This document shows, piece by piece, positions 24,454 to 33,880 of a DNA stretch of 64,000 bases. The notes beneath the pieces were generated by a model that was not told the DNA's origin, ran no database searches, and worked only from the letters and a program-made list of their open reading frames with translations. The stretch spans positions 114,300 to 178,299 of the forward strand of contig JAHFUM010000002.1 in assembly GCA_023265135.1 (NCBI GenBank). Reading direction: 5' to 3'. Every line of letters begins with the position of its first letter. The stretch's first letter is position 1. Made by a program: the position numbers and the translations under genes. The stretch is from Nitrosarchaeum sp. (lineage in GTDB: Archaea > Thermoproteota > Nitrososphaeria > Nitrososphaerales > Nitrosopumilaceae).

Positions 24454-24542
24454 AACTCTCTTTAAAAAAAGGGATATTTAATTCAAAGATAAAATAAAAA
24501 TATATGATAAAATACTAGACAAGATCAAAGACTAATATTTTC

Positions 24543-24638
24543 CTATAATGGCAATTGTATAAAAAACAAGTATAATCCTATCCAAAATCCAATGATTAAT
24601 GCCAGAGACTGCCAGTGTCTGGATAACCATTTTTTCAT
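24543..24638 (-). CDS. Single-helix micro-protein, 31 aa, coupled to the leader array
   Basis: It starts MKKWLSRHWQSLALIIGFW, with a basic N-terminus and one membrane helix ending in IQLPL. Its ATG overlaps the stop of the 24635-25258 gene as ATGA, a hallmark of coupled translation. It closes the minus-strand array of secreted proteins. The size is below usual gene-calling limits. The positive-inside pattern and the overlap make it more than a chance frame. Function unknown. Confidence 0.5.
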   Translation of the reverse strand: MKKWLSRHWQSLALIIGFWIGLYLFFIQLPL

Positions 24639-25258
24639 TTTCTTTTTCTCCAATAGAACATTAACCCAAGAAATGAACCTCCTCCAATTATCATTCCAAC
24701 AATAGCAGGAGTTACAAAAATTGAAGTTCTATCCAACAAAGGCGAAGAAGATCCCGGCGTGTTGGATTCTTGCATTACTGATTTTTTTGCAATCTGTAAT
24801 TTTTCCTCAATGGATTGTGATTCTGTATCTTGATTGGCAATTTCATTCGGGTTTAAATGAATTTCTTGGGGGGTAGAGTATTGTGTTGGATAAGAATCCA
24901 TTTTTAGAATCTTTTTTTCTTGTAAACTAAATAATATGCTAACTGATGTTTCATTGTTTACATTTAATGCAATTATCGGATCACATTTTCCAATATTAGT
25001 ACTACATTCATATCCATTTCCATCAATAAACGAAAATGGTTTTTCGCCTACGATTTTTTGAAACGAATCATCTAAAATTATTATTTTTTTTATTTCATCT
25101 AATGTTTCAACAGATAATGGTTCTGATGGAAACTGACTTGGCATTGTATCATTTCCAACATGTTCATTTGAATTTCCCAGATATTGTGCAAAAACAGATG
25201 ATGTAAACGTTGGAAGTAAAACAAGAGTTCCAATTATGATCAAAAGTCTAGTTTTCAT
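24635..25258 (-). CDS. Secreted, C-terminally anchored protein with shared MKTRLL leader
   Basis: 207 residues. Signal peptide MKTRLLIIIG... (cut near SVFAQ, about 25), a polar domain with two cysteines (CSTNIGKC), an acidic/Gln-rich stalk (about 130-165), one membrane helix (about 178-200) and a basic stop-transfer tail FYWRKRK. It is an extracellular, membrane-held protein. The first 11 bases ATGAAAACTAG contain the TAG stop of the upstream gene, so the two overlap by 11 bases. A member of the leader array at 24.5-30.1 kb. No known domain. Confidence 0.7.
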   Translation of the reverse strand: MKTRLLIIIGTLVLLPTFTSSVFAQYLGNSNEHVGNDTMPSQFPSEPLSVETLDEIKKIIILDDSFQKIVGEKPFSFIDGNGYECSTNIGKCDPIIALNVNNETSVSILFSLQEKKILKMDSYPTQYSTPQEIHLNPNEIANQDTESQSIEEKLQIAKKSVMQESNTPGSSSPLLDRTSIFVTPAIVGMIIGGGSFLGLMFYWRKRK

Positions 25259-25823
25259 TTTTCACACCTGTAGAATTTTTATCAAACGGTATCATGCATC
25301 CATGTAGTGGAAAATCACAAGCGATTCTTATCTCAGTTCCATTATCAAAAGTACCATAACAAATCCAAGGCTTTTCAGTACAAGCGTTCTCAACACGCAT
25401 TTGAGATATGTTTAGATCTTTATGAGATGGAAGTCGTTTTTCCAAAATAACATCCACGCATTCTTGTAATTTCTCCCAAGTTATTCCCTCAGGCAATCCT
25501 ATAGTAGCAATGATATAGTTGCCATCAAATTCTTGGTCAAATAAATTTGAATATTTGTAGAGATGATCAAGTATTTGCTTGTCACAACCAAGATCTTCTA
25601 AATCCTCTAATGGGAAACACCTATCCCGAGTTACAGCACTTTCTTTTTCAACTGAAATTGCCCTATCTATGACAAAACATATTGGATCAGGAATATGTTG
25701 TGATTCAGGATAAAAAACATCAATACCTACGCTATTTTTTGGTGGATTTTGAATTACAAAAGCAGATAGTATGGAAATTCCTACAGCAAATGATGCAATT
25801 AGAATTATTGAACTAGTTTTCAT
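25248..25823 (-). CDS. Secreted protein with MKT leader, cysteine-rich
   Basis: 191 residues from the ATG at 25823; a TTG nine bases earlier is possible. The leader MKTSSIILIASFAVGISIL shares ATGAAAACTAG with the other array genes but then diverges. The mature part contains eight cysteines, including CFVID, RCFPLEDL, ENACTEKPWICYG and CDFPLHGC, which suggests disulfide bonds outside the cell. No C-terminal anchor. It ends KNEN followed by TAG, which lies inside the start of the next gene. No recognised domain. Confidence 0.65.
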   Translation of the reverse strand: MKTSSIILIASFAVGISILSAFVIQNPPKNSVGIDVFYPESQHIPDPICFVIDRAISVEKESAVTRDRCFPLEDLEDLGCDKQILDHLYKYSNLFDQEFDGNYIIATIGLPEGITWEKLQECVDVILEKRLPSHKDLNISQMRVENACTEKPWICYGTFDNGTEIRIACDFPLHGCMIPFDKNSTGVKNEN

Positions 25824-25838
25824 TTTCAGCAAAATAAC

Positions 25839-27497
25839 TCATATCAAACAAGCTCTAATAATTTCTATTTTCTTTGCATTTTCTTGAAATTGAATTAACA
25901 CGATTTGTTTGTCAGTTGTCATGGTTTCATGAAAGTTAACTTCTTCACCATCTACTATAACAAAAAGTGGCATACTTGTCTCGTCATAATTCTTGTTATA
26001 ATTTTTGTCACATTGACCAATTATTGCATCCACAAGAGTTTTTGGAAGTGCAATAGTAAGTTGTCCTGCTTCTGATTTATCTAATGTAATAACAATTGAA
26101 TTTGTATCCACGTTTGAAATTATATTTGATAATTTCGCACCCTCAATAAAATACGGTATCTGGAATGTTCCGTTTTTACCTACATCTAACGTAAACGTTG
26201 ACTCGTTTAATTTGCAGAGACTGTAATCAATTGTAGCATTGCCATAAAGTATTCCTCGTTCCTTAGGAGTCACAATAGAATCATCATCTTTTATTAAAAA
26301 TCCGTATTTGCCAAATCCAAATTTTTCAATTCCGCATTTTAAATCACGATAACCATTGCCACAATGCATACCTTCACAAGTCATATCATGCTTCCCCTCT
26401 TGCCAGTATTCATATGGTTTGAATGTCCATCTTATTTTATCATCAACATGTTTCAATGCTTCCTCTTGTGAAATCTTGTAATTCAAATTCAACATTTTAT
26501 CAACGTCAGATTCTGAAACTAGAAGATACAACGTATAGCGAGCGGAACAAGAGCACGATGCACAGAGAACAACATTCTCACCCACTGAACTTGTTCTTAC
26601 ATCAAAAACTGTTATGCCTTGTTTTTTGTAATAATTTTCTATGGCAATTTTTTCTTCATAAATTATGCCTTCTGCATGCTCACCAATCGGGTATGACGAA
26701 TAATTCCCATCATGTGACTGCACCCAATCCTTTTCCCATGGATTACCCAAACATTGGATTGGATAGGTTTCAACCCAAGTTTTTTCAGACGTATCTTTAG
26801 GAACTGATTCGGATTGTTTTGGAATAATGCCTGCATCTGTTGGACCAGCAATCATCAGAAGCATTGCAAAGCCTCGCTCAATGAGTTTTGCTTTCGATTC
26901 AGGTTTTACACACATTGGACGATGTGTGTGGTCTCTTTTGATTACAATCTCCAGTCCTTCTTTACAAGTAATCTCATCGGGTTGAATTCCGGATTTGGAT
27001 TGTTTTAGTGGTGAAAGAATAAGTTTTTCTTTATTGATTAGAGTTGGTATATTTTCATTTCTAATCTCATGGTCTATACCAAAAATTATTGAATCTGACC
27101 AAAAACTCTTGAGCGGTACATCATGAAGACCCACGCCAACATATGAAATATTTAGAAATATTTTATCATACTCAATATCTGGGTCTACTGTTACAGTAAC
27201 TGGAATTCTTACAATGGAATTTTGATTAACATTCACTGGTTCTGTATCAAAATGCACTTTAGATGTAGCGCCGCGTGGAGTGATATCTGCTATTGCGGTC
27301 ACATTACTGAGCGAATATGCTCCTTCTGTATATTGGAATTTGATCTCAAACTGTGTGGTGGAATTAGGCGATATAGTTACTGGTATTCTTTCAAGGGCCG
27401 TGGTTCCATAAAAGAAATTATCACTTGCACTAAATGCTTGATGAATGATAACACCTGTAAATCCAATCAAAATTAGTAATAAAACAAGATATTTCAT
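25839..27497 (-). CDS. Large secreted protein: two-cysteine module plus C-terminal beta domain
   Basis: 552 residues from the ATG at 27497, where a clean signal peptide begins (MKYLVLLLILIGFTG). A TTG at 27563 would add 22 polar residues and is less likely. Parts: a beta-sandwich (about 28-145, VRIPVTVTVDPD), the two-cysteine module (162-210; LSPLKQSKSG ... TCKEGLEIVIKR ... CVKPESKAKL), and a cysteine-rich central domain (about 240-420) with CASCSCSARY. The C-terminal beta domain (about 435-552) resembles the N-terminal part of the 28882-29976 protein. Extracellular, no anchor. Unknown function; the build is clearly modular. Confidence 0.7.
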   Translation of the reverse strand: MKYLVLLLILIGFTGVIIHQAFSASDNFFYGTTALERIPVTISPNSTTQFEIKFQYTEGAYSLSNVTAIADITPRGATSKVHFDTEPVNVNQNSIVRIPVTVTVDPDIEYDKIFLNISYVGVGLHDVPLKSFWSDSIIFGIDHEIRNENIPTLINKEKLILSPLKQSKSGIQPDEITCKEGLEIVIKRDHTHRPMCVKPESKAKLIERGFAMLLMIAGPTDAGIIPKQSESVPKDTSEKTWVETYPIQCLGNPWEKDWVQSHDGNYSSYPIGEHAEGIIYEEKIAIENYYKKQGITVFDVRTSSVGENVVLCASCSCSARYTLYLLVSESDVDKMLNLNYKISQEEALKHVDDKIRWTFKPYEYWQEGKHDMTCEGMHCGNGYRDLKCGIEKFGFGKYGFLIKDDDSIVTPKERGILYGNATIDYSLCKLNESTFTLDVGKNGTFQIPYFIEGAKLSNIISNVDTNSIVITLDKSEAGQLTIALPKTLVDAIIGQCDKNYNKNYDETSMPLFVIVDGEEVNFHETMTTDKQIVLIQFQENAKKIEIIRACLI

Positions 27498-27568
27498 TAT
27501 TTGATTACATGAATAATACAAAGTTGATAAAGTGTTCTCATCATTATTGTTGGCATTTTCCAATTTAT

Positions 27569-27829
27569 CTAATGTTTTCTTTTGATCATTATAATTAAAG
27601 TCAAAATCAGTGCAATCATTCCAATTATTACTACAGTCATTATCAAAAGAGGAATGTTTAGTTCAACGAGCGGATGACTGTTGTTGACCCCAAATTCATA
27701 TGGAAGATTATTCGGGGCAGTACAAGGCTGAGCATAAAGATCTACACATTTTGCATTCGCAGATGAATTTGATAATATAGAAAAAACAATGACAAAAATT
27801 CCCATAATTACTAAAAGTCTAGTTTTCAT
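27569..27829 (-). CDS. Small membrane-anchored secreted protein with MKTRLL leader, 86 aa
   Basis: The leader MKTRLLVIMGIFVIVFSIL (cut near NSSANA) is followed by about 30 outside residues with two cysteines (KCVDLYAQPC), then one membrane helix (about 57-80) and a basic tail IMIKRKH. The layout is a miniature version of the 24635-25258 protein: the same leader and the same anchor type with almost no domain between. An array member. Confidence 0.65.
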   Translation of the reverse strand: MKTRLLVIMGIFVIVFSILSNSSANAKCVDLYAQPCTAPNNLPYEFGVNNSHPLVELNIPLLIMTVVIIGMIALILTLIIMIKRKH

Positions 27830-27839
27830 TTTATCTCAA

Positions 27840-28871
27840 TCATTGAAGTGACTCTGCCACTTTGATCAACTCGTTCAAAGGAATTCCAGCCTGGAGTGAA
27901 TATTTCACACCATTTTCATCAATGAATTTGATTTTAGTCTCAGCAGAAGTATGCTTTTGGATAACTGTTCCGTCCGTAAAGTTTGCTGTTTGTATACCAC
28001 AATCATTGCATGAATCAACTGCATATGCCAGCATTCCGTTAATTTGGATTAATTGTGGGTGCAATGACGGGTTTTCCACCATTACCCCATCATATGTGTC
28101 CTGAATTCTTTGTGTTGCAGATCCATATATTGCAAATTCTTTTTCACCAACTAATCTTTTTTCATCCGTTTGGAAAATGAAAATTGCGCCATCTGAAATC
28201 AATTCAGGATAATTGGATATCCATCCATCAGGTACTTTTTTGTTATGAAATATCATATAGGATTCATAGGGTGTGCCCGAAAACGAACATTTGAAAGAAT
28301 ATCCATCAGGCAAATAGGAAGGTATTTTGAAAAATGTCGCAGTATCTTTACTTTTTTCTAGTGTCATACACATCACGTTTACCTTAGAGTCAGGTTCTGC
28401 ATTAAATCCATCCTCAGCAATTTCCGATTCACCTAGATCAATATAGAATGGTTCAGGTTGTGAATGTGTTATGCCCTTATCATATTCTGTAACTACTTGT
28501 ACCTTGAGAGATATCTTGTCACCTACATTCCACTTGTTTCCATCAAATATCGGGATTATTCCTGAGTCCTTTGTAGAAAATTGCATATGATCTTGGCTTA
28601 CACAGGAAAATCCACTGCAAATCTTGTATCCTTGTAAAATAGCTGGAACATCTGACCTTATGCTTAATTGGAGATGGGTACCGCAATCATCCGTTTGTAT
28701 AGGGCACATTATTGGTAAGAAATGTGGATCATAAAACACATGTGCTGAAAACCCATATGGATTTTCTTTGGAATATTGCTGATCATCTGAAGATAGTGTA
28801 AAAAATCCAACAGCAATAGCAGAAATAACAGTTATTGTGATTCCAATTATTATCAAAAGTCTAGTTTTCAT
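27840..28871 (-). CDS. Secreted protein with MKTRLL leader, 343 aa
   Basis: Leader MKTRLLIIIGITITVISAI, then an N-terminal beta-type domain (about 35-150) with cysteines (MCPIQTDDCGTH, KICSGFSCVS). A second part (about 165-343) resembles DUF4367/outer-surface lipoprotein-like folds (PSYLPDGYSF ... VNGMLAYAVD-type strand). The likeness of PSYLPDGYSF to that family is from memory and weak. The C-terminal helix has no anchor. An array member, 10 bases from each neighbour. Confidence 0.65.
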   Translation of the reverse strand: MKTRLLIIIGITITVISAIAVGFFTLSSDDQQYSKENPYGFSAHVFYDPHFLPIMCPIQTDDCGTHLQLSIRSDVPAILQGYKICSGFSCVSQDHMQFSTKDSGIIPIFDGNKWNVGDKISLKVQVVTEYDKGITHSQPEPFYIDLGESEIAEDGFNAEPDSKVNVMCMTLEKSKDTATFFKIPSYLPDGYSFKCSFSGTPYESYMIFHNKKVPDGWISNYPELISDGAIFIFQTDEKRLVGEKEFAIYGSATQRIQDTYDGVMVENPSLHPQLIQINGMLAYAVDSCNDCGIQTANFTDGTVIQKHTSAETKIKFIDENGVKYSLQAGIPLNELIKVAESLQ

Positions 28872-28881
28872 TTTCTAATTA

Positions 28882-29976
28882 CTATCTTATCACAAAGTCC
28901 TTTTGAATTATGTCATCACCAAACGTAACAAATAATGTGTAAAATCCTTCTTTGTTAATAATTGGTGTTCCAAAATGTGTATTGTCACCTATCTTCCATT
29001 CTTTGTTGATGTGAGCATTTTTCATGTCAGGATCACATAATGATACAACACCTCCACTTTCCCAAATTTTATCATGATTACTGTCTTCGATTCTTAGTTG
29101 AGGATATCTGCAACCATGCCCTATTCCGTCAAACTTTACTGTAAATTCAATTTTTTGTCCGACACTATATGTTTCGTTTAATCCCTCTACTGTAAGCGAT
29201 GGTTTGAATGTATGATCTTCTCTTGGGATGACAAATCCTTCTTCAGTAATTAGGGGTGGTTCTACTAATCCCTCTTGAAGTAGTTTAGATTTAGTGTGAG
29301 ATTTTACACATATTGGATGTCCGTTATTTTTCTTTATTACAAGCTCTAGTCCCTCTTTACAAGAAACTTGTTGGGATGGAATTCCAGACTTGAACTGCTT
29401 TAGTGGTGAAAGAAAATATGCAAATGGAGGATCATGTGTTCCATTACAGGCATTTTCTCCCATGTGTTCTGGATAGTTTACTCCAATTATCTTAATCTGT
29501 AAGGTTTCGTTTGAGAACGGTATTATTAAAACTCTTAATTTTTCACCTGCAATATCTGAGTGCTGTGTTTCCTTTGAATTCAACAATACAAGGAAATTGT
29601 CATCTTTATTCCCACTCATCTTTGAATCAATAAGATGTCGTGGAAGTGCCAATGTGATCCAACCTTGTTTTGTAGTTGGAGCAATATCCAGGACTAGTTC
29701 TGTGTTGTCACAATCGATACTAATTTCAGAAACAGTTCCATTTGAAATGATATATGGCACATTATAGCGATAGTTGCCTGCGATTACAGAATATTTTTCA
29801 AACTCTGGATTAGAATAGTAAAAATCAGCATATGAATGAGGGAAAACATCTTTTCCAGTTTCAGCATCATACATTGTGTTTGGAGGAAGTTTGTCACCCA
29901 AGTATTGCCCATATGCAGTTCCAACAAGTCCCAAGGTAAGAGAAAATCCAATTAATATCAATAATCTAGTTTTCAT
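28882..29976 (-). CDS. Secreted protein with MKTRLL leader, beta domain and two-cysteine module
   Basis: 364 residues from the ATG at 29976; the longer frame to 30108 lacks a leader and is rejected. Signal peptide 1-23 (cut after AYG), then a beta domain (about 70-165: YNVPYIISNG ... WITLALPRHLID) matching the C-terminus of the 25839-27497 protein. The two-cysteine module follows (190-238: SPLKQFKSG ... SCKEGLELVIKK ... CVKSHTKSKL), then an Ig-like domain (about 255-364). A GGAG ribosome site precedes the ATG, which also overlaps the stop of a micro-protein gene as ATGA. First large gene of the array. Confidence 0.72.
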   Translation of the reverse strand: MKTRLLILIGFSLTLGLVGTAYGQYLGDKLPPNTMYDAETGKDVFPHSYADFYYSNPEFEKYSVIAGNYRYNVPYIISNGTVSEISIDCDNTELVLDIAPTTKQGWITLALPRHLIDSKMSGNKDDNFLVLLNSKETQHSDIAGEKLRVLIIPFSNETLQIKIIGVNYPEHMGENACNGTHDPPFAYFLSPLKQFKSGIPSQQVSCKEGLELVIKKNNGHPICVKSHTKSKLLQEGLVEPPLITEEGFVIPREDHTFKPSLTVEGLNETYSVGQKIEFTVKFDGIGHGCRYPQLRIEDSNHDKIWESGGVVSLCDPDMKNAHINKEWKIGDNTHFGTPIINKEGFYTLFVTFGDDIIQKDFVIR

Positions 29977-30053
29977 TTTCTCCAAACCACATAACCTGTA
30001 CCCAAAACTAATAATGCAAATCCAACAACACCCAATACCCACATGACAGACAT
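29973..30053 (-). CDS. Single-helix micro-protein or anchor remnant, 26 aa
   Basis: The frame starts MSVMWVLGVVG, is one membrane helix, and ends YVVWRK followed by TGA inside the ATGA overlap with the next gene. The tail resembles the FYWRKRK anchor of the 24635-25258 protein. It may be an independent micro-protein that leads the array, or the last helix of a decayed larger gene. The open frame extends only about ten codons upstream of this ATG. Confidence 0.4.
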   Translation of the reverse strand: MSVMWVLGVVGFALLVLGTGYVVWRK

Positions 30054-30204
30054 AAAATGGGCAGATAGTTCGGCTATTTGGCATTACTGGAGCGCTGGAA
30101 CTCCTCAAGTCAATTCACCATTTTGGGCGAAGCTTAACTGTAGTCCTAGTTATAGACACATACATGCAGGAACTACAGGTTCAGCAACATGTGCAGAATA
30201 CTAG
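30043..30204 (+). pseudogene. Possible 3' remnant of a secreted-protein gene
   Basis: A 53-residue frame rich in Trp, His and Ser (AIWHYWSAGTPQVNSPFW) with two cysteines near the end (LNCSPSYRH ... SATCAEY). The composition reads like the C-terminal part of a folded secreted domain, yet no signal peptide precedes it. A stop lies 18 codons upstream and no promoter is evident. It sits at the upstream border of the minus-strand array. It could be chance; confidence is low. Confidence 0.3.
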
Positions 30205-30218
30205 GAGATTGAACTGAC

Positions 30219-30872
30219 ATGAAAAACAAAAACTTGGGAATCATCACAGCTTTGATGACCATTGCAGTTATTGGTGGATTTGTTATTTCATATCAAGTAT
30301 TCCAACCAGAAACAACTCCAACAATAACCACGAAAATAGATACAGCTAATTTTGAAAAGTCACAAATGCGTGGATTAGGTGATCTGTATTTACTTGATTA
30401 TGGGAATGAAATTTCTGCTGATGCAGCAAGAACTATGACGGGCTTTACAAAAGCTTCTACTCCTTCTATGGTTATTGAAAATTTGGCGCTAAAATCTGTC
30501 AGAGTTCGAGACTATGCAGAATCTCATATGATGACAGCTTTTTACGTTCCATCAATCATCATGTTACAGGATCTTGATACATTTGAAAGTGTGATGAACA
30601 ATAAAGGAATAATTGTAATCTTCACAGAAGAAAAACAATCTTCAACATATGACTCACAAAAGTGGCGAGAAGAATTTGTTAAGGCAGCACCACAAGTAAG
30701 AAAATCCGATACCATAAATGGTTATCCGACAATTGTAATAACTGGAAATCCTGACAAAGATATCAAATCTGAGGTTCTTGTCTACAAAGACAATTTACAG
30801 ATAGACATTGTGTCAGTGAAACATAATGTTAATGAATTAGTAGGGATTGCGCAATTAATTACCAGAGGATAA
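30219..30872 (+). CDS. Secreted or lipid/membrane-anchored hypothetical protein, 217 aa
   Basis: One N-terminal hydrophobic helix (about 7-27) works as signal anchor, followed by a Thr/Pro spacer (ETTPTITTK) and a folded alpha/beta domain of about 180 residues with no cysteines. The domain contains EEKQSSTYDSQKWREEF and ends in a helix. It would face outside. The family is not recognised. It diverges from the array and is 177 bases upstream of the serpin gene on the same strand. Confidence 0.65.
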   Translation: MKNKNLGIITALMTIAVIGGFVISYQVFQPETTPTITTKIDTANFEKSQMRGLGDLYLLDYGNEISADAARTMTGFTKASTPSMVIENLALKSVRVRDYAESHMMTAFYVPSIIMLQDLDTFESVMNNKGIIVIFTEEKQSSTYDSQKWREEFVKAAPQVRKSDTINGYPTIVITGNPDKDIKSEVLVYKDNLQIDIVSVKHNVNELVGIAQLITRG

Positions 30873-31049
30873 CTCCTTTTTTCTTTTGTTATGTTGCATT
30901 GTCTATAGTATTAACTCTTAATTTTCAGCAAACCCATCTTTAAAACACTTGAAAAGCAATTTAATTTGAAACAATTTTTTCATTCTAAGAATAACTAGAA
31001 TTGATGCTTTTGTAGAACTCCTTATAGTCTCATCGAATGTATTTTAATT

Positions 31050-32861
31050 ATGAGATATTTTTTTGTAGTTGTCACATATGCGGTTGTATTCTTTGGTTTT
31101 GCAACACAGGCTGATGTTTTTGCATCAGTTTCATTAGATTCGAAATCTATCTATGGAGAAAGTTACCAAGTTGCGAAAATCTATTTCGATAAACCACAAT
31201 ACGGCGACATGAACAATGAGACACAAGCAAAGATTCGACTAATAGAGCCAGACAACAATGTTGATTCTAATAGCATTGACAATACATCTGTACTAATATT
31301 TTCAGACTCTGATCCACAAGGACAATCTGTATCTGTAATAGAAACAGGAAAGAACACAGGAATCTTTGAGGGGAACATAAAACTAACTTTTGATAAAACT
31401 ACAGAGGAACAAATCTATGTAAGTGATGGAGATACAGTGACGGCCGAATTTGTTGATCTGACTTTGCCTTTTAGCTATAAAGGCCAAAAAGAGATTACGG
31501 TCACTGCATTTATTGAGAAAATAGGTTCATCAGTTAAGCGAGTCTCGATTCCATATGATTCACCATTGAAGCAATTCCATTCTGGAATCTTAACTAAAGA
31601 GATTCAATGTAAAGATGGATTGGAGCTTGCAATAAAAAGAAGCAACAGTTCTCCTGCATGTGTAACGCATAGCACTCTTGAGATTCTTAAACAACGAGGA
31701 TGGATTGCAAATTCAACATCAAACTATACCAAACCAATAATCAATCCACCTGAAATTAGAAAGCCTGCAAAAAATATCGTTGATTCAACTAATCAATTCA
31801 TGCTTGACTATTATTCCACAACTAACACCAAAGATGATAATTTTTTTTTCTCCCCATGGAGCATATTAAGCGCATTTTCTGTTCTTTATGAGGGAGCAGA
31901 GGGACAAACTGCAGATGAAATAGCAGGCATATTTTATTTGCCTAAAGATGATTCAGAAAGAAGAGACTCATTTGGAACAATGCAAAACAACCTCAATGTA
32001 AATGGCTCAGGATATGAGCTCAGAAACGCAAATGCATTGTGGATAAAACATGGATTTGATGTAAAAGATGAATTTGTAAATATGTCAAAACAATACTATG
32101 ACAGCAAAGTATCAGAGGTTAATTTTCCTGCAGATGAATCAATTGTTGACTCTTGGGTTGAAAACCAAACAAACAACAAGATAAAGGATCTAATAAAAGG
32201 AAAGACAGATGGAGGGACAGAATTAGTAATTACAAATGCCATCTACTTTAAGGGAACATGGCAGACTCAGTTTGAATCAAAAAATACAAAAGATAGACCT
32301 TTTCATGTGACTTCAGACAAGTCAGTTTCAGTACCCATGATGAACACACAATCAAAGTTTGCTTATGCAGAAACTGATGATCTGCAGATAATATCCATGC
32401 CATACAAGGGACAAAAAATCTCAATGTCAGTGTTGCTTCCAAAGAATAATCTTGAATCCCTAGAAAAATCAATCACAGTACAAAAACTAGAAGATTGGAA
32501 AAAAAGCCTACGTGAACAAGATGTGATATTGTCTCTTCCAAAATTCAAGCTAGAAACAGAATATGACTTGGCAAAAATAATGCCCAAGATGGGAATTAAA
32601 TTAGCTTTTGATCCTGAGAATGCGGATTTGTCGGGAATATCAGACTTGAAAGGACTGTTCGTACAATCTGCAATTCACAAAGCGTTTGTTGACGTAAATG
32701 AAGAGGGGACAGAGGCGGCCGCTACAACGACTGTTAGTAGTGGATTAACAGGTGAAACATCACCAATGTTTAGGGCAGATCATCCATTTGTATTTTTGAT
32801 ACAGGATAATGAAACTGGATTAATCTTGTTTATGGGCAAGGTATCTGATCCTACTAAATAG
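31050..32861 (+). CDS. Secreted serpin with N-terminal Ig-like domain and two-cysteine module
   Basis: 603 residues. Signal peptide 1-25; Ig-like domain about 30-160 with ETGKNTGIFEG; two-cysteine module 171-218 (SPLKQFHSG, Cys187, Cys204); complete serpin domain about 240-603. Serpin signatures include FFFSPWSILSAFSVLYEGA, NAIYFKGTWQTQF and ADHPFVFLI. The hinge NEEGTEAAATT (550-560) fits the inhibitory consensus. Counting 17 residues from Glu551 puts the scissile bond near Thr567-Gly568, after Leu566, suggesting an elastase/subtilisin/chymotrypsin-like target. It is a suicide inhibitor that would act outside the cell, perhaps against proteases of neighbours or the cell's own. Confidence 0.9.
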   Translation: MRYFFVVVTYAVVFFGFATQADVFASVSLDSKSIYGESYQVAKIYFDKPQYGDMNNETQAKIRLIEPDNNVDSNSIDNTSVLIFSDSDPQGQSVSVIETGKNTGIFEGNIKLTFDKTTEEQIYVSDGDTVTAEFVDLTLPFSYKGQKEITVTAFIEKIGSSVKRVSIPYDSPLKQFHSGILTKEIQCKDGLELAIKRSNSSPACVTHSTLEILKQRGWIANSTSNYTKPIINPPEIRKPAKNIVDSTNQFMLDYYSTTNTKDDNFFFSPWSILSAFSVLYEGAEGQTADEIAGIFYLPKDDSERRDSFGTMQNNLNVNGSGYELRNANALWIKHGFDVKDEFVNMSKQYYDSKVSEVNFPADESIVDSWVENQTNNKIKDLIKGKTDGGTELVITNAIYFKGTWQTQFESKNTKDRPFHVTSDKSVSVPMMNTQSKFAYAETDDLQIISMPYKGQKISMSVLLPKNNLESLEKSITVQKLEDWKKSLREQDVILSLPKFKLETEYDLAKIMPKMGIKLAFDPENADLSGISDLKGLFVQSAIHKAFVDVNEEGTEAAATTTVSSGLTGETSPMFRADHPFVFLIQDNETGLILFMGKVSDPTK

Positions 32862-33088
32862 AAATTATCACTTTTTTTTATGGTATTCTTTTCGGACCCA
32901 CTAAAGCCAGATCCTTATAGTTACAGAAGGAAATTAGTGCAAAATCTAATCACCTAACTATATTCCCCGCGCGTTATGCGAGCAGTCAAATTTGAACCCC
33001 AATATACAAAATCAAAAAAATTATTGAATTTTGAGCAAAAATCCCTCAACTACGCAACGGTTTTCTAATTCACAGATCTTTAAAACGC

Positions 33089-33478
33089 ATGAAGCACAGA
33101 ATCATACTCCAAATTCCAAATACATCAGACATTACTCTGGAATTAGATGAACAATATTCTCCCAAGACTGTCAAAGCCTTTGTAGAAACATTACCATTTA
33201 CAGTTCAACTAAACATTTGGGGTGAGGAGATATACTCTTCTGAATCACCAATTCAAATATCTGAAGAAAATGCAAAATCTCCTGTAGAATTAAATGATGT
33301 CGCATATTGGCCTTCAGGCAAAGCAATCTGTCTGTTTTATGGTCCTACACCAATCGGAAAAAAAGGAGAAATAACACCTGCATCACCTGTTAATGTGATT
33401 GGAAAAATTATCTCACCTGACAAAACAATTTTAAAAAAAGTCGACGGAAGCTATGCAACTTTTAGATTAAGTCATTAA
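33089..33478 (+). CDS. Cyclophilin-like-fold protein
   Basis: 129 residues resembling the cyclophilin-like family (PF04126 type, TM1367-like). The N-terminal strand-helix is ITLELDEQYSPKTVKAFVETLP; the central part is VAYWPSGKAICLFYGPTPIG, and the C-terminal part VNVIGKI. Members have the cyclophilin barrel but not the full proline-isomerase residues, so enzyme activity is doubtful. It ends one base before the convergent JAMM gene. TTTAAAA before the ATG is a likely promoter element. Confidence 0.75.
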   Translation: MKHRIILQIPNTSDITLELDEQYSPKTVKAFVETLPFTVQLNIWGEEIYSSESPIQISEENAKSPVELNDVAYWPSGKAICLFYGPTPIGKKGEITPASPVNVIGKIISPDKTILKKVDGSYATFRLSH

Positions 33479-33880
33479 TTATGTTTCAATGTCAATTTCC
33501 AAAACATCTTGCTCTAAAACAAATGCTCTAAATTCGTCTGATATTCCTGAATAAATTATCCACACCACCGGGTTACTGTACATGAATTTCCTGTCAGTCT
33601 CTGAGGGATACGCCACAAAATTTGGATGCGAATGAAAAATGCCAACAACTTCGATCTTTTTCTCATCTGCAATTTTGTAACATTTGATTAATTGCTCATT
33701 TGAAATTGTAAAGTTTGTTGGGGATTCGTCTATGTTTTTTGTAAGAAATATTTCGCTAACTGTGGTTTTCTGCCCTTCCACCTTTCCAAATAATATGGCA
33801 CATGATTCATTTGGCTTTTCATTATTTGCGTGATTTGAAAGGATTTTTTTTTGAGATTCCGTTATGATTATTTTTTGCAA
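33479..33880 (-). CDS. JAMM/MPN+ domain metalloprotease
   Basis: 133 residues, a single Mov34/MPN/PAD-1 domain. The JAMM motif is complete: the catalytic Glu in ESCAILFGK (about 25), then HSHPNFVAYPSETD (about 83-96), giving zinc His, His and Asp with the supporting Ser. In archaea such enzymes remove SAMP/ubiquitin-like modifiers or process ThiS/MoaD-like proteins, so deconjugation is the likely role. It has no added domains. It is followed by the cyclophilin-like gene head-on and separated by two bases from the double-cupredoxin gene upstream. Confidence 0.88.
   Translation of the reverse strand: MQKIIITESQKKILSNHANNEKPNESCAILFGKVEGQKTTVSEIFLTKNIDESPTNFTISNEQLIKCYKIADEKKIEVVGIFHSHPNFVAYPSETDRKFMYSNPVVWIIYSGISDEFRAFVLEQDVLEIDIET

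Follow-up and report, generated by a model that had tools for sequence, protein, structure and literature searches.

A run of minus-strand genes for unlike secreted or membrane-anchored proteins in Nitrosarchaeum sp. appears to be assembled from units that meet at one short, repeated DNA element. The run lies in a 64,000-nucleotide stretch of contig JAHFUM010000002.1 (the window), part of a 1.8-Mb archaeal genome (G000), and its six genes (genes 1 to 6) start at 29976, 28871, 27829, 27497, 25823 and 25258. We think it probable that this run is a small example of a gene-cassette array whose members are exchanged by homology at the repeated leader. The element is a recombination junction. The sequences themselves show its conservation, the cassette-wise mosaicism, the position of breakpoints at it, the overlap of stop and start codons and the existence of orphan copies.

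A Leader Element Conserved as DNA

The initial annotation of this region had pointed to five genes that begin with the same 11 bases. Indeed, the window holds five exact copies of ATGAAAACTAG, always on the minus strand (starts at 29976, 28871, 27829, 25823 and 25258), and the whole genome holds 10. When one mismatch is allowed, the window contains 11 matches against 2.8 expected, a count reached by none of 100 shuffles. As stated originally, four of the five starts code for MKTRLL; the fifth (25823) codes for MKTSS. The shared start is therefore real, but 11 bases proved too short a description of it: when 272 copies are aligned, conservation is strong between -5 and +22 and slight beyond, which defines an element of about 28 nucleotides, AGAAA-ATGAAAACTAGACTTTTGATAAT. 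The export signal behind which new domains were thought to be placed is constant over about its first eight codons, but the remainder of the signal peptide moves with the gene body.

Because the 272 copies had been picked by nucleotide similarity, we repeated the codon test on 150 leaders picked by a degenerate amino-acid pattern. ACT made up 91% in these leaders (background 36%), codon 6 was TTG in 84% (background 24%), and codon 7 was mostly ATA, which accounts for 31% of isoleucine codons in the background. When each cassette family was represented by a single copy (n = 51), 43 of 46 leucine codons were TTG and 36 of 40 isoleucine codons were ATA, while codon 8 had returned to the usual codon usage of the genome. 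Leaders coding for MKTRLLI differ from one another by a mean of 1.48 nucleotides, compared with 4.90 expected from genome codon usage. On the strength of these tests, codon bias was dropped as the cause of leader conservation. Free synonymous variation among relatives had been named at the outset as an observation that would speak against a cassette mechanism; there is none in either the amino-acid-selected or the deduplicated set, and so the idea survives its own test.

Stop codons are present in both other frames of ATGAAAACTAG, TGA at +1 and TAG at +8. At 138 of 291 sites the element closes an upstream open reading frame (ORF) of at least 60 codons, 75 of them on TGA (often as WRKRK-stop) and 63 on TAG (as NEN-stop), implying that a cassette frequently depends for its stop codon on the cassette that follows. 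The window contains the example that was first noticed: the gene starting at 25823 ends at the TAG inside the leader of the gene starting at 25258. In addition, 26 of 199 sites (with up to three mismatches) are orphan elements that run into a stop after 5-32 residues, several of them without any mismatch; MKTRLLIIK-stop and MKTRLLIITMII-stop are examples in the window's own genome, and several orphans still close an upstream gene. The element thus persists at sites that yield no signal peptide, and its behavior is that of a DNA junction in addition to that of an export signal; it is conserved as DNA and not as peptide alone.

Shuffling of Cassettes at the Element

The loci compared here were gathered by scanning for the element pattern, since a search of GTDB contigs for close relatives of the gene 2 protein had given nothing usable; all were thus collected around the element, and the frequency of shuffling applies to these loci, not genome-wide. 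At 272 sites, we compared the 394 bp upstream with the 400 bp downstream. Both flanks were alike in 13 pairs, the upstream flank only in 113 and the downstream flank only in 130. Upstream identity of up to 98% can end in ATGAA and be followed by unrelated sequence in a different species, and the reverse is also found, so the pattern predicted for related genomes, a common leader with different sequence behind it, does occur.

Nine cassette pairs match end to end with 76-97% identity, either in different species or at two places in one genome, and their members are mostly equal or nearly equal in length (760/760, 610/610, 733/733, 431/431 and 275/275 bp). The neighbors on both sides are unrelated in all seven pairs with readable flanks. 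Among the nine pairs are one within a single genome (G175), where 760 bp occur at two places 34 kb apart; a pair that crosses genera (G097/L181; 275 bp, 85% identity); and a pair of 733/733 bp with both flanks different in two single-contig genomes (G169/G151). Within the window, the C-terminal part of gene 1 together with the next leader (29236-28846) is found with 85% identity in a Nitrosarchaeum metagenome-assembled genome (MAG; L113), where a different protein follows, and a second copy with 78% identity on contig C19 of the window's own genome runs into an orphan leader. The junction element of gene 2 (28849 to 28876) is a cassette breakpoint against L113/L060 and against contig C19 (L194).

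Homology ended no more than 25 bp from the element in 123 cases against 12.8 expected, an excess of about tenfold. Ends were also found at the starts of non-leader ORFs (86, with 47 expected) and at ORF stops away from the element (205, with 45 expected); the enrichment at stops implies that similarity fades at gene ends in general. At identities of at least 85%, 31 of 41 pairs at leaders were one-sided, compared with 21 of 58 at other starts (Fisher p=2e-4). Shuffling is concentrated at the element, not exclusive to it. Within the element the breakpoints vary: the first mismatch on the right side lies at +5, +6, +10, +11 or +19, and the last mismatch on the left side lies upstream of the ATG or at +4, +10 or +12.

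The mean column identity of 42 array proteins is 8%, and the families to which they belong are scattered, with serpin, PQQ propeller and SNase among them. Array cassettes are co-directional and interchangeable in order, each gene having its own start and the genes overlapping in runs. The initial annotation had described the mature parts as unrelated, which is not true of all of them: a WING-49 domain (NF058652, E 1e-19) is common to the products of genes 1 and 4, which are 40% identical over 89 residues. Its proposal of a leader swap was right in that unlike extracellular proteins are exchanged at a constant leader, but the unit that moves is a whole gene, from leader to leader.

Distribution of the Arrays

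The strict leader pattern has at least one match in 40 of 200 Nitrosopumilaceae genomes, with up to 16 per genome; looser element counts reach 28 in one island set. About a dozen matches in bins with bacterial labels were left out as chance or misbinned; element-bearing contigs in three bacterial-named bins (L108, L133 [OFTM22] and L158 [OFTM376]) are probably misbinned Nitrosopumilus. Arrays that bear the element occur in Nitrosarchaeum and Nitrosopumilus, where a single genome can contain up to about 30 copies of it. By eye, the smallest genomes of these genera (~1.2 Mb) generally lack the strict leader pattern, and element counts seem to track genome size, being many in genomes of 1.6-2.2 Mb and few or none at ~1.2 Mb.

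The element consensus is identical in seven of nine genomes, across the two genera, and site mismatches are as numerous within genomes as between them (4.61 versus 4.64); genome-specific homogenization of the element was dropped on this ground. The element had no match in IMG/VR viral records and the gene 1 protein none among PLSDB plasmids, and carriage by viruses or plasmids was dropped as well.

A Proposed Model of Homology-Directed Exchange and Its Alternatives

In the model we propose, a cassette extends from one 28-nucleotide junction to the next and usually comprises a single gene, occasionally a pair, whose product is secreted or anchored in the membrane. The junction contributes the start codon and first eight codons of the downstream gene, and stops in its other two frames end the upstream gene. 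DNA from another place or another cell would recombine at the repeated junction, so that cassettes could be gained, lost, duplicated and reordered, with products that remain in frame, exported and co-directional. The reaction may be ordinary homology-directed recombination over the short repeat, of RadA type or by annealing. The genes of an array may be co-transcribed, and their export signals and membrane anchors suggest that the benefit could be turnover of surface proteins.

A search for an enzyme bears on this model. The integron integrase model TIGR02249 scored below cut-off in 11 of 11 genomes, and serine recombinases were absent from 13 of 13. PF00589, in which Xer-type and other integrases are taken together, was present in 17 of 20 genomes; the array-bearing, single-contig G151 has no match to PF00589, PF16795 or a Y1 transposase. 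Y1 transposases were absent or broken. Integrases near some islands are 23-34% identical or have no match to one another, and the idea of a single common island integrase was dropped; serine, archaeal-type and Y1 recombinases were dropped as the enzyme after profile searches. A palindromic recombinase site was likewise dropped, because 32% of shuffles equal the best inverted repeat of the element, which thus lacks significance. Since breakpoints vary in the element and no integron integrase, serine recombinase or common tyrosine recombinase was found, homology-driven exchange is the likeliest reaction, and the absence of known recombinases leads us to infer that it does not depend on such an enzyme.

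Several observations nevertheless weigh against the model. Rearrangement of the islands is not confined to the element; breakpoints were inferred from 15 high-identity pairs; and many source genomes are MAGs, though several are single-contig. A repeat of 25-28 bp is short for RadA-type recombination. Homogenization inside each genome should give local sub-types, and instead differences within genomes equal those between them; together with the identical consensus, this leans toward a common cassette pool or a sequence-specific factor.

Such a factor might be an unrecognized dedicated site-specific recombinase or nuclease that acts on the 28-nucleotide element, in an integron-like system of ammonia-oxidizing archaea. 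We consider this possible but clearly less probable than exchange by homology. It would account for a conserved stretch of DNA with defined length and sharp edges, for the same consensus in two genera, for orphans with 0-1 mismatches and no leader function, and for cassettes that run precisely from site to site. Variable breakpoints inside the element fit it poorly, as do the negative integron integrase and serine recombinase searches, the array in G151, the dissimilarity of island integrases and the lack of a significant inverted repeat. Equally tentative is the proposal that the system is unrelated to integrons and reads a 28-nucleotide site composed of a stop codon, a start codon and the beginning of an export signal; if so, the recombination site would itself be coding, and every insertion would yield an in-frame, exported product.

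It is also conceivable, but we think improbable, that the element owes its conservation to selection on expression, through start context, stop-start coupling or a regulator, and that breaks cluster there since exchange elsewhere destroys genes. The stop codons are in use, which would explain T8-A9-G10, and the AGAAA context is also favored, less strongly, before other genes starting with MK. However, selection of this kind leaves TTG at codon 6, ATA at codon 7 and the orphans of 5-32 residues unexplained, and other gene starts at the same loci are much weaker breakpoints. Ordinary tandem paralogs, whose mature parts diverged while protein constraint and codon bias kept the signal peptide, are very improbable: genes 1 and 4 do share WING-49 and some further similarity, but as a full account tandem paralogy is refuted by the near-identity of MKTRLLI leaders, the unlike protein bodies and the independent shuffling of flanks and bodies. 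Least probable of all is an assembly artifact in which short repeats misled assemblers into joining unrelated contigs at the leader, for although several source genomes are fragmented MAGs, the same arrays occur in single-contig genomes (G125, G130, G097, G169 and G151), the 733/733-bp cassette links two of these, and a 28-bp repeat is shorter than an ordinary read.

Comparison with Known Systems

Integron arrays, including those of archaea (PMC9668308), are similar in having co-directional, short, mostly uncharacterized genes as exchangeable units, a repeat between them and spread across species. Here, however, no integron integrase exceeds the cut-off, breakpoints vary, and the 28-nucleotide element overlaps both the stop of a gene and the start of its successor and contains no significant inverted repeat. 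An attC site is longer and structured and follows its gene, whereas the boundary in these arrays, judged by its position and its best inverted repeat, falls within the beginning of the following gene. The p-dif (Xer-site) modules of Acinetobacter plasmids are comparable in that the mobile units are genes with a site of ~28 bp on either side. Those sites lie between genes and are acted on by the XerC/D tyrosine recombinases; the site described here is coding, and one array-bearing genome has no PF00589 match. In place of the Xer/dif layout (28 bp, with 11-bp inverted arms, a 6-bp spacer and a fixed crossover), we observed weak symmetry and variable breakpoints.

The variable surface lipoproteins of Mycoplasma (vsa, vpma) also combine a constant leader with unlike surface proteins and recombination at the leader. 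In those systems, silent genes with a conserved 5' leader are switched into a single expression site, next to which the recombinase is encoded. In the arrays, by contrast, each gene has its own leader and start, the genes form overlapping, operon-like runs, as read from sequence alone, and exchange crosses species. Finally, the YSIRK-type motifs of Gram-positive surface proteins are alike in that a conserved motif opens many export signals, but YSIRK is conserved as protein, whereas here synonymous DNA positions and leaderless orphan copies are conserved.

We found no published description of such element arrays, and no mention of "MKTRLL" or "WING-49", in the literature searched, from which subscription journals were largely absent. 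Nor are they described in the passages retrieved from PMC6563490, which surveys the mobile elements integrated in Thaumarchaeota, and from the archaeal integron report (PMC9668308). A junction that combines stop, start and export signal would account for the shuffling of unlike secreted proteins between species with the reading frame kept intact; microbes could in this way trade surface proteins without breaking any gene. Ammonia-oxidizing archaea are among Earth's most abundant microbes, and to our knowledge their surface diversification and gene exchange are largely uncharted. The cassette could provide a discrete unit by which horizontal transfer among them can be counted and followed, and it raises a sharp question: does the site have its own enzyme, or is ordinary recombination enough?

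The Window Array and Its Island

The array lies within a variable segment (24491 to 33463; the right border lies at ~33110 or ~33464, depending on the relative). Nine relatives (L184, L186-L193) lack this segment of ~9 kb, from 24491 to ~33464, at the corresponding place, where the flanks up to 24490 and from 33111-33539 adjoin or enclose other inserts (78 bp in L184). In L188 the same hotspot contains ~15 kb; by eye, its content resembles a Dps gene in L189 and, in L186, a small toxin-antitoxin pair. There is no tRNA near the island, and no long direct repeat was seen to pair its ends.

All genes of the run and their junctions are on the minus strand. The first is preceded by a fragment of 26 residues with a transmembrane stretch and WRK (MSVMWVLGVVGFALLVLGTGYVVWRK, then stop; 29973 to 30053), whose TGA overlaps the start of gene 1 and which is probably the 3' remnant of a truncated cassette. 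Gene 1 (28882 to 29976), with a junction element at 29954 to 29981 identified by pattern match and alignment, encodes a secreted protein of 364 residues whose WING-49 domain was recognized by profile. Gene 2 (27840 to 28871) encodes 343 residues with a C-terminal DUF4367 match (E 9e-6); its N-terminal and C-terminal halves resemble different proteins. Gene 3 (27569 to 27829; junction element at 27807 to 27834, again by pattern and alignment) encodes a secreted protein of 86 residues with a C-terminal transmembrane anchor. It shares one cassette with gene 4 (25839 to 27497), which encodes 552 residues, has a different leader (MKYLVLLLILIGF) and contains WING-49.

The junction element of gene 5, matched by pattern at 25801 to 25828, diverges past the 11-mer (MKTSS). 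Gene 5 itself (25248 to 25823; 191 residues) has the C terminus KNEN-stop on the TAG of the next junction (25236 to 25263), from which gene 5 takes its stop codon and gene 6 its start codon. Gene 6 (24635 to 25258) encodes a secreted protein of 207 residues that ends in a transmembrane segment and WRKRK-stop and is 56% identical to a protein in L048/L100. Its stop is overlapped by the ATGA of a 31-residue membrane ORF (MKKWLSRHWQSLALIIGFWIGLYLFFIQLPL; 24543 to 24638, minus strand), which has 79% nucleotide identity over 95 bp in L182 (G007).

Known families are scarce: WING-49 occurs in genes 1 and 4 and in a neighboring serpin, and DUF4367 in gene 2. The serpin (31050-32861) combines an N-terminal S-layer-like region with WING-49, and serpins are cassette cargo elsewhere too (L164:16115-17350). 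The WING-49 copies of the window lie at 29265-29403, 26865-27011 and 31563-31706, and the analyzed loci hold 97. As an internal hinge, WING-49 has its N side alike in 47 pairs, its C side in 30 and both in 10; its DNA is unconserved (median ungapped identity 43%), and we do not take the hinge as proof of mechanism. A second recurring leader, MKY[LF]V(I/L)LL-I-G-, opens gene 4 and genes at many array loci (for example L164 and L167), often after a longer gap; these genes perhaps carry their own promoter. On the plus strand at ~30055-30208, an open C-terminal fragment without a start (WADSSAIWHYWSAGTPQVNSPFWAKLNCSPSYRHIHAGTTGSATCAEY, then stop) faces the truncated minus-strand cassette and looks like an old rearrangement point.

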